NCBI GenBank assembly: GCA_019192545.1
Contig: JAHCMI010000029.1
Coordinates: forward strand, 29,199-93,198
DNA: 64,000 bases
DNA from: Rivularia sp. MS3
GTDB lineage: Bacteria; Cyanobacteriota; Cyanobacteriia; Cyanobacteriales; Nostocaceae
Direction of reading: 5' to 3'
Part shown: in pieces, positions 56,639-59,165 of the stretch
Layout of the letters: each line of letters begins with the position of its first letter
How positions within the stretch are numbered: position 1 is the first letter of the stretch
Notes under the pieces: model-generated
Database searches by the model: none
The model's input: the letters and a program-made list of their open reading frames with translations, nothing else
Told to the model about the DNA's origin: nothing
Translations under genes and position numbers: made by a program

Positions 56639-57045
56639 AATATTCCTTGCCTCTTTGTATATCTAAGGTAAAAGCGAGGCGCGTTCCTTCGGCTCTATAT
56701 CCTACTTCCGTCTTTATAAGCTATTTAACTATCTAGTTATTGTTAGTTGCGAACAAAGATGAACGTTTAATTACATTTCTGTAACTACTGTAACACTTTT
56801 TCCGTAAAGTCATGGTAGTTTAACAAAGTTTTATCTTTTCTTTATATCTTTAAGGTAAATAGTAGGGTGTATCACTTAATTGGTTAGGTATAGCGGTTTT
56901 TAGTTAAATGCAATTCACATTTTGCGCCATTGGTAATAAAAGTAGGTGAAGCCAATTTTCATTTTCAGACTGAACTGAATGATATTGATTTAGAGAAAAA
57001 GGGAAAGCTAAAAGAAAGCTCTTAGTTGTTTGAATACGTTATATT

Positions 57046-57930
57046 ATGCTTTCTGACTATTATGTTCGTGATGCAAAGAAGGAAGATATTAATCATATTA
57101 CTAAACTGCATTTACGAAACAAAACAAGAGATTACTTTTTGCCATTCGGTTTAAACTTTAAATGGTCATATAGTTGTACTAAATTACTATTTATTATTCT
57201 TGTTTTTAATTTAATATTGAATTATGAATCAAATAAATTAATAGTTTTCAATTCATCACTAGATTTATCGATAAACATTATTTTTTTTAATGTATTTTCA
57301 TGTGGAATGCTGAAATTTCCATCTTTTATATAGCGTTCCTACAGCAACTGAGGTACAGCTTTACTTCACCCCCAACCCCTCTCCTTATTAAGGAGAGGGG
57401 AGATAGGTTTTGAGTTATACCGAGTGGAGACTGGGAAACGCTATATTTGAGCGTTATAAATATTTTGGATTACAAAATTATTCACAGTTTATATTGCTTG
57501 AAAATGATAATAAAATAATCGGCTATGCAAAGTTTGTTAAAAATCGCGAATATTTTGCACTGAATCACCTATACCTTCCTAATAGGTTAAAAGAAGAATT
57601 AATTGCTTTGTTTATTCGACACATTATTAATAATAGGAATGGGCGCAACTGGCATGTTTTTCTCGTAGGATGCTGTGACACTTTGACTAATTCTGAACGT
57701 AGTAATAACATGCAGGCTGTGTCACGCACCAACCGGCATTGTGACAATTGCGGCCATTCCTGAATAAATCAGTACAGCCTATATATGTAGCATGTACAAA
57801 AAAAAGAAGCAAAGTTATATATTTAGTATTGGTTTTAAGCATATAGGAATACAAAAACTACCAGAAAATCTCAGATTTCGTGGTTGGCTAAATCAACTAT
57901 TTGGAGGACAAAATTTAGCTTATATAAATA
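57046..57930 (+). pseudogene. Disrupted GNAT-like acetyltransferase gene (three ORF fragments)
   Basis: YYVRDAKKEDINHITKLHL (57046-), FERYKYFGLQNYSQFILLENDNKIIGYAKFVKNREYFALNHLYLPN (57446-), YIFSIGFKHIGIQKLPENLRFRGWLN (57792-). End approximate. Confidence 0.7.
57329..57446. mobile_element. MITE-like insertion with ATATAGCGTT(T)CC terminal inverted repeats
   Basis: Left ATATAGCGTTCC (57328-57339), right GGGAAACGCTATAT (57433-57446); internal hairpin CCCCTCTCCTT-ATT-AAGGAGAGGGG (57376-57400). Confidence 0.8.
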
Positions 57931-57932
57931 AA

Positions 57933-59165
57933 TCAAACCTGCAAAACCTTAATTTCTTCCCCAGCAGTAACCGACTTCTTCCCAATCTCCAAAACAGCTA
58001 AAGCATTAGTCTGAGCTAAATTAATCAAATTTCCAGAGCTTTTACTACCACTAGCAGCATTAAATTGATAAACCCCGTCAACCAAATCCAACTTTCCCCA
58101 AATATAAGTTTCCCGTTTACCGTTGGAATTTAAATCATCGCGAGTTTGGGCTTTGATAAATCTAGGCTGCCAACCTTCCATAATGCTGGAACATTTTTTG
58201 ATAACTGGCTGTACAAAACGCCAATAACTCACCAAAGCTGAAACTGGATTCCCCGGTAAACCAAAATATATCGGAGCATTCGGAATGTTGAAAGTTGCTA
58301 CCGTCAGAGGTTTACCGGGTTTCATTGCCACGGCTCTGACTTTAATCTCCCCACCGAGAGATTCGAGAATTTTTTCAACATAATCGTAGTCTCCTACAGA
58401 CACACCACCGGAAGAAAGTACTATATCAGCTTTAGCGATCGCTTCTTCAATGGCTTCTTTGAGTGCCTCGGGTTCATCTTTGATAATTCCCAACATCAAA
58501 GGCTCACCGCCGCACTGTTTAACTAAAGAAAATAAAGCGTACTGATTTGAATCTACAATTTGCCCAGACTGTAAAGTTTGTTCGGGGGTTATCAATTCAT
58601 CACCAGTAGATAAAATAGCTACACGGGGACGACGAAAAACATTTAACTTTGTACATTGAGCGGCAGCTAAAACGGCTATTTCCGTAGCATTAAGCTGAAT
58701 TCCTGCTGATAATAATTTCGTTCCCGCTTGGTAATAAGCAGCACGATGTCTGACAAATTCTTGAGATTCCGGTGCTTTAAGAATAAATACTTTATCGTCT
58801 TCGCGACGGGTATTTTCTTGCATGACTACTGTATCGGCACCTTTGGGCATTACCGCACCCGTAAAAATTCGCGCAGCTTGTCCCGATTGAATGTTAGATT
58901 GAGGTTGATAGCCTGCGGGAATATCCTCAACAAGTTTTAAAACCGCTGGCTTTTCCTCACTTGCTTCTCGAACATCTTGATAAATTACAGCATAACCATC
59001 CATAGCTGAGTTATCCCAGTGAGGAAAATCGAGTTTACTGGTAACTGCTGAAGCTAAAACTCTTCCGGTAGCTGTTAATAAATCGACGGTTTCTATATCT
59101 GTTTGATTATTTAAAGGTTTAACCAAATTAAAGATAATATTTTCTGCTTCGTTTACTGATAACAT
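57933..59165 (-). CDS. moeA: Molybdopterin molybdotransferase
   Basis: HWDNSAMDGYAV; IFTGAVMPKGADTVVMQE; VLSSGGVSVGDYDYV; FGLPGNPVSALVSYWRFV. Confidence 0.95.
   Translation of the reverse strand: MLSVNEAENIIFNLVKPLNNQTDIETVDLLTATGRVLASAVTSKLDFPHWDNSAMDGYAVIYQDVREASEEKPAVLKLVEDIPAGYQPQSNIQSGQAARIFTGAVMPKGADTVVMQENTRREDDKVFILKAPESQEFVRHRAAYYQAGTKLLSAGIQLNATEIAVLAAAQCTKLNVFRRPRVAILSTGDELITPEQTLQSGQIVDSNQYALFSLVKQCGGEPLMLGIIKDEPEALKEAIEEAIAKADIVLSSGGVSVGDYDYVEKILESLGGEIKVRAVAMKPGKPLTVATFNIPNAPIYFGLPGNPVSALVSYWRFVQPVIKKCSSIMEGWQPRFIKAQTRDDLNSNGKRETYIWGKLDLVDGVYQFNAASGSKSSGNLINLAQTNALAVLEIGKKSVTAGEEIKVLQV

Follow-up and report, generated by a model that had tools for sequence, protein, structure and literature searches.

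Insertion sequences of the IS630 family target TA dinucleotides, and duplication of the TA is their signature. The MITE Nezha of Anabaena and Nostoc falls in a size class similar to that of the element considered here; for Nezha, PMC10969869 cites Zhou and colleagues (2008). MITEs inside broken genes are already well documented in cyanobacteria (PMC3542288); Anabaena sp. 90 has 147 MITEs, ranging from 77 to 541 bp, of which 15 lie inside disrupted genes (PMC3542288).

The window analysed here is a stretch of 64,000 nucleotides from Rivularia sp. MS3. The initial annotation proposed that two of its open reading frames, 57046-57333 and 57410-57763, are parts of one GNAT-like gene split by a MITE. 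This proposal is supported by further copies of the element in the genome, by duplication of a TA, and by uninterrupted homologues of the gene. We consider it very likely that a non-autonomous MITE of IS630/Tc1-mariner type, mobilised by an IS630-family transposase, broke the gene at a TA, and that the gene carries at least two further lesions. The features are listed in Table 1.

Table 1. Features of the disrupted GNAT-like gene, in coordinates of the window.
Feature	Position	Strand	Basis
GNAT-like pseudogene, N-terminal part	57046..57330	+	95 codons; uninterrupted homologues in G258 and G090
Left TA target duplication, MITE 1	57329..57330		Sequence; TA duplicated at sister copy L003, single in the empty site of G006
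MITE 1, IS630-type	57331..57443	+	113 bp, TAGCGTTCC...GGAAACGCTA; genome copies at 97%, 97% and 89%; ends in common with a congener IS630 element
Internal hairpin CCCCTCTCCTTA/TAAGGAGAGGGG	57376..57400		Dispersed in the genome also without MITE ends
Right TA target duplication, MITE 1	57444..57445		As for the left TA
GNAT-like pseudogene, middle part, between the MITEs	57446..57633	+	Same homologues cross the junction without a gap
Left AATAA target duplication, MITE 2	57629..57633		Sequence
MITE 2, different family	57634..57762	+	129 bp, TAGGAATGGGCGC...GCGGCCATTCCTG; about 40 genome matches; 8 of 10 examined copies with perfect 5-bp duplications
Right AATAA target duplication, MITE 2	57763..57767		Sequence
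GNAT-like pseudogene, C-terminal part	57768..57938	+	One or more frame changes near 57796-57821; motif IGFKHIGIQKLPENLRFRGWLNQLFGGQNL in another frame; G006 remnant 63% identical

MITE 1 begins with TAGCG and finishes with CGCTA. Including the flanking TA, its end motifs read TATAGCGTT... at 57329 and ...AACGCTATA at 57445, which bears out the inverted ends first described for it, and the stop codon of ORF 57046-57333 (TAG, 57331-57333) does consist of the first bases of its left end. The 115 bp originally taken as the element (57331-57445) comprise the element and one TA, the element proper being 113 bp. It is short, without coding capacity, and has TATAGCGTT.CC inverted ends, as is usual for a MITE. 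The internal hairpin is indeed perfect, with arms of 12 nt (CCCCTCTCCTTA, 57376-57387; TAAGGAGAGGGG, 57389-57400) and not the 11 bp previously given, and the strand folds with z = -4.8 relative to dinucleotide shuffles. At the window site itself, the flanking TAs are all that is visible of a target duplication.

A DNA search of the strain's own genome (9.2 Mb, a draft of 174 contigs) with MITE 1 gave 102 matches. The copies on contigs C164 and C47 are full length and 97% identical, the copy on C148 is 89% identical, and that on C98 (L005/L006) is interrupted by a further insertion; many of the remaining matches are divergent or contain the hairpin core only. The flanks of the different copies are unrelated, as expected for a dispersed MITE. 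The search for further copies that had been suggested was therefore successful, and the presence in the same genome of full-length copies at 97% identity with unrelated flanks means that the observation is more than chance. Exact matches to one end of MITE 1 were found only in Calothrix records, namely an uncultured Calothrix MAG and Calothrix parasitica NIES-267, which on this evidence puts the strain in or close to Calothrix.

The target site is best seen at one of these other loci, L003, which reads ...AGAATACCCATT-TA-[element]-TA-AAGCTATAAATAATG. In the congener G006 the element is absent and a single TA is present, ...AGAATACCCATT-TA-CAGCTATAACTAACG. This locus provides both a target duplication and an empty site, and because the empty site keeps one TA, it is direct evidence for TA-targeted insertion; TA is also the target dinucleotide of IS630-derived MITEs. 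The empty sites of L002 and L004 are less clean: G006 also lacks the element at L004, but the right-hand TA there is now CA. The suggestion of a recent insertion at a TA is thus upheld as regards the target, while the recency is plausible, since two copies are 97% identical and the TA is intact on either side, although no date can be attached to it.

Several repeats were noted alongside these copies. The hairpin CCCCTCTCCTTATTAAGGAGAGGGG (L018, approximately 1501-1543, and many other loci) is widespread as a dispersed repeat in its own right, lacking the MITE ends. At L005 (approximately 1566-1701) and L010 (approximately 1547 to the contig end), another element (TACTG...CAGTA) has inserted at the very tip of the MITE hairpin; at L005 it is flanked on both sides by TCCTTATTAAGGA, a pattern that would fit preferential insertion into the hairpin with duplication of 13 bp. 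At 56888-56930 of the window, a short distance upstream of the pseudogene, TATAGCGGTTTTTAGTTAAATGCAATTCACA is similar to one of the two ends of a related family of repeats (L014, TATAGCGGTTTTC..., may be compared).

When position 57330 is joined to 57446, the sequence ...MLKFPSFIFERYKYFGLQNYSQF... is in frame and the protein reads ...KFPSFI|FERYKYFGLQ...; the element-free form of the window site would read TTTTATATTTGAG. For an order-wide search, the rejoined protein was taken without either MITE and carried across the last frame change; G258 (E = 2.9e-21) and G090 (E = 1.3e-19) each gave an uninterrupted homologue. The alignments cover positions 4-208 at approximately 30% identity and run ungapped through the MITE 1 junction. 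A homologue search with the rejoined protein had been proposed as a check, and the result agrees with the proposal, in that each homologue is a single protein spanning the junction. A peptide-pattern scan of genome contigs with the rejoined protein found no relative. The rejoined window protein scores 12.4 bits against Pfam GNAT, for which the curated cut-off is 20.7, and the description 'GNAT-like' therefore rests on the homologues; the aligned G258 homologue is well above several GNAT cut-offs.

ORF 57410-57763 starts with a TTG inside MITE 1, and its last 42 or so codons lie inside a second repeat, 57634-57762, so that it is not a natural unit. It could be supposed that the two open reading frames are real, separate genes and that the 113 bp form nothing more than a hairpin between genes, for instance a terminator, since there is a hairpin in the middle of the element. 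However, the element occurs in dispersed copies with TA duplications, the start codon of the second frame lies within it, and the homologues are single uninterrupted proteins. We regard this reading as extremely improbable, and it was rejected on the basis of the homologues together with the TA duplication at L003 and its empty site in G006.

The second repeat is MITE 2, which has AGGAATGGCCGC-type inverted ends. Its perfect 5-bp duplications were seen in 8 of 10 copies, compared to 2 of 90 unpaired combinations of flanks. With MITE 2 also left out, the frame runs on to ...IRHIINKSVQPIYVACTKK. The conserved C-terminus IGFKHIGIQKLPENLRFRGWLNQLFGGQNL lies beyond this in another frame, from which it follows that there is at least one indel near 57796-57821. 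The earlier claim that excision restores the frame is consequently correct for the MITE 1 junction, where removal of 115 bp is sufficient, but not for the whole gene, in which a second MITE and at least one frameshift would remain. Excision of MITE 1 mends a single lesion out of three or more. The idea, implicit in the initial annotation, of one recent hit that excision would undo has to be abandoned, given a MITE of a second family and at least one frameshift in the same gene.

An orthologous empty site for the window insertion was sought in seven congeners by means of synteny with moeA. Five of these had a moeA match and were read, and none of the five has such a site. In the closest congener, G006 (MoeA 93% identical), only the last 54 or so codons of the gene, 63% identical, are found between moeA and the 56231 ORF, and in G001, G002, G005 and G007 there is no piece of the gene in this interval. 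The G006 interval has a stack of nested repeats (L150, approximately 1670-2200) where most of the gene would be. As judged from these sequences, the GNAT-like gene is decaying or lost in the clade, and for this reason the recency of the insertion and the order of the lesions cannot be stated firmly.

It is also necessary to consider whether the gene had lost its function before MITE 1 arrived, owing to MITE 2, to a frameshift or to its no longer being needed, in which case MITE 1 contributed nothing to its inactivation. We give this slightly less than an even chance. The gene has at least two other lesions and is a remnant or missing in the five congeners, as this reading would have it; on the other hand, neither its N-terminal nor its middle part contains a further stop or frameshift, which implies either selection until fairly recently or a young decay, and nothing fixes the order of the lesions.

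A candidate source for MITE 1 was found in the congener G005, which has three identical IS630-family elements of approximately 1.03 kb (L125, L131 and L136) with ends TATAGCGTTTCCTGGTCTAGTGAAGTACA / TATAGCGTTTCTCAATCTAGTGAAGTACA. They encode, in two frames, an HTH_Tnp_IS630 protein and a DDE_3 protein, the second of which is an IS630 family transposase according to NCBIfam, above the cut-off. A DNA search with this element picked out MITE ends in three congeners, matching at 27 of 29 bases; other MITEs of the MITE 1 family have ends nearly identical to those of the insertion sequence. The window copy has in common with it the first 12 bases at the right end and a TGARGTACAG motif near the left end, so that the shared ends expected of an IS630-derived MITE are clear for the family and weaker for the window copy itself. 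Because the three G005 elements have the same ends, MITE 1 is best read as IS630-derived, and it was probably moved by an IS630-family transposase; mobilisation in trans by the G005 element is inferred. A literature text search with the inverted-repeat sequence gave nothing relevant.

The transposase need not have been that of the G005 element, and could instead have been, for example, a diverged or lost one of the strain's own genome. A DNA search of that genome (draft, 174 contigs) found no copy of the G005 insertion sequence, and its two DDE_3 transposases, which were checked as a source, do not have TAGCG ends. Against this, the TA duplication has the character of IS630, within the genus, MITEs belonging to the family agree with the G005 element at as many as 27 of 29 end bases, and a lost close relative of that element would still be an IS630. 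We consider a different transposase unlikely, while allowing it some weight.

The preferred explanation, an IS630-type insertion, can be set out as follows. A transposase encoded by an IS630-family element whose ends are TATAGCGTTTC... would have recognised the inverted ends of MITE 1, which inserted at a TA dinucleotide inside a gene coding for an acetyltransferase that is GNAT-like and contains a hydrophobic insert. The insertion would have duplicated the TA and brought an immediate stop codon. What is left of the gene is a pseudogene, in which two or more further lesions are present, namely a MITE of a second family and one or more frameshifts. It is also conceivable, although we would not bet on it and hold it rather doubtful, that MITE 1 is composite: an IS630-type shell would have captured the very abundant and otherwise independent hairpin CCCCTCTCCTTA/TAAGGAGAGGGG and would spread it into TA sites, while a third element inserts in its turn into the hairpin (L005, L010).

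The analysis defines a well-bounded MITE family for a cyanobacterial genus, which it links to one particular IS630 element found in a congener, and presents one gene seen decaying under two unrelated MITE families. For annotation, the open reading frames at 57046 and 57410 should be replaced by one pseudogene and two MITEs. Decay of a gene through mobile DNA is clearly seen here but is nothing out of the ordinary, and general understanding is unchanged. In its TA duplication, its lack of coding sequence, its many copies and the inverted ends that it has in common with a congener insertion sequence, MITE 1 resembles the IS630 (IS630/Tc1-mariner) insertion sequences and the MITEs derived from them. 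It differs from these MITEs in that its autonomous partner is found in a congener and not in its own genome, and in that its core is a hairpin repeat which also occurs alone. The MITEs of Anabaena sp. 90 (PMC3542288), compared here by description rather than by sequence, represent the same phenomenon in a filamentous cyanobacterium; they have no matching insertion sequence in their own genome.
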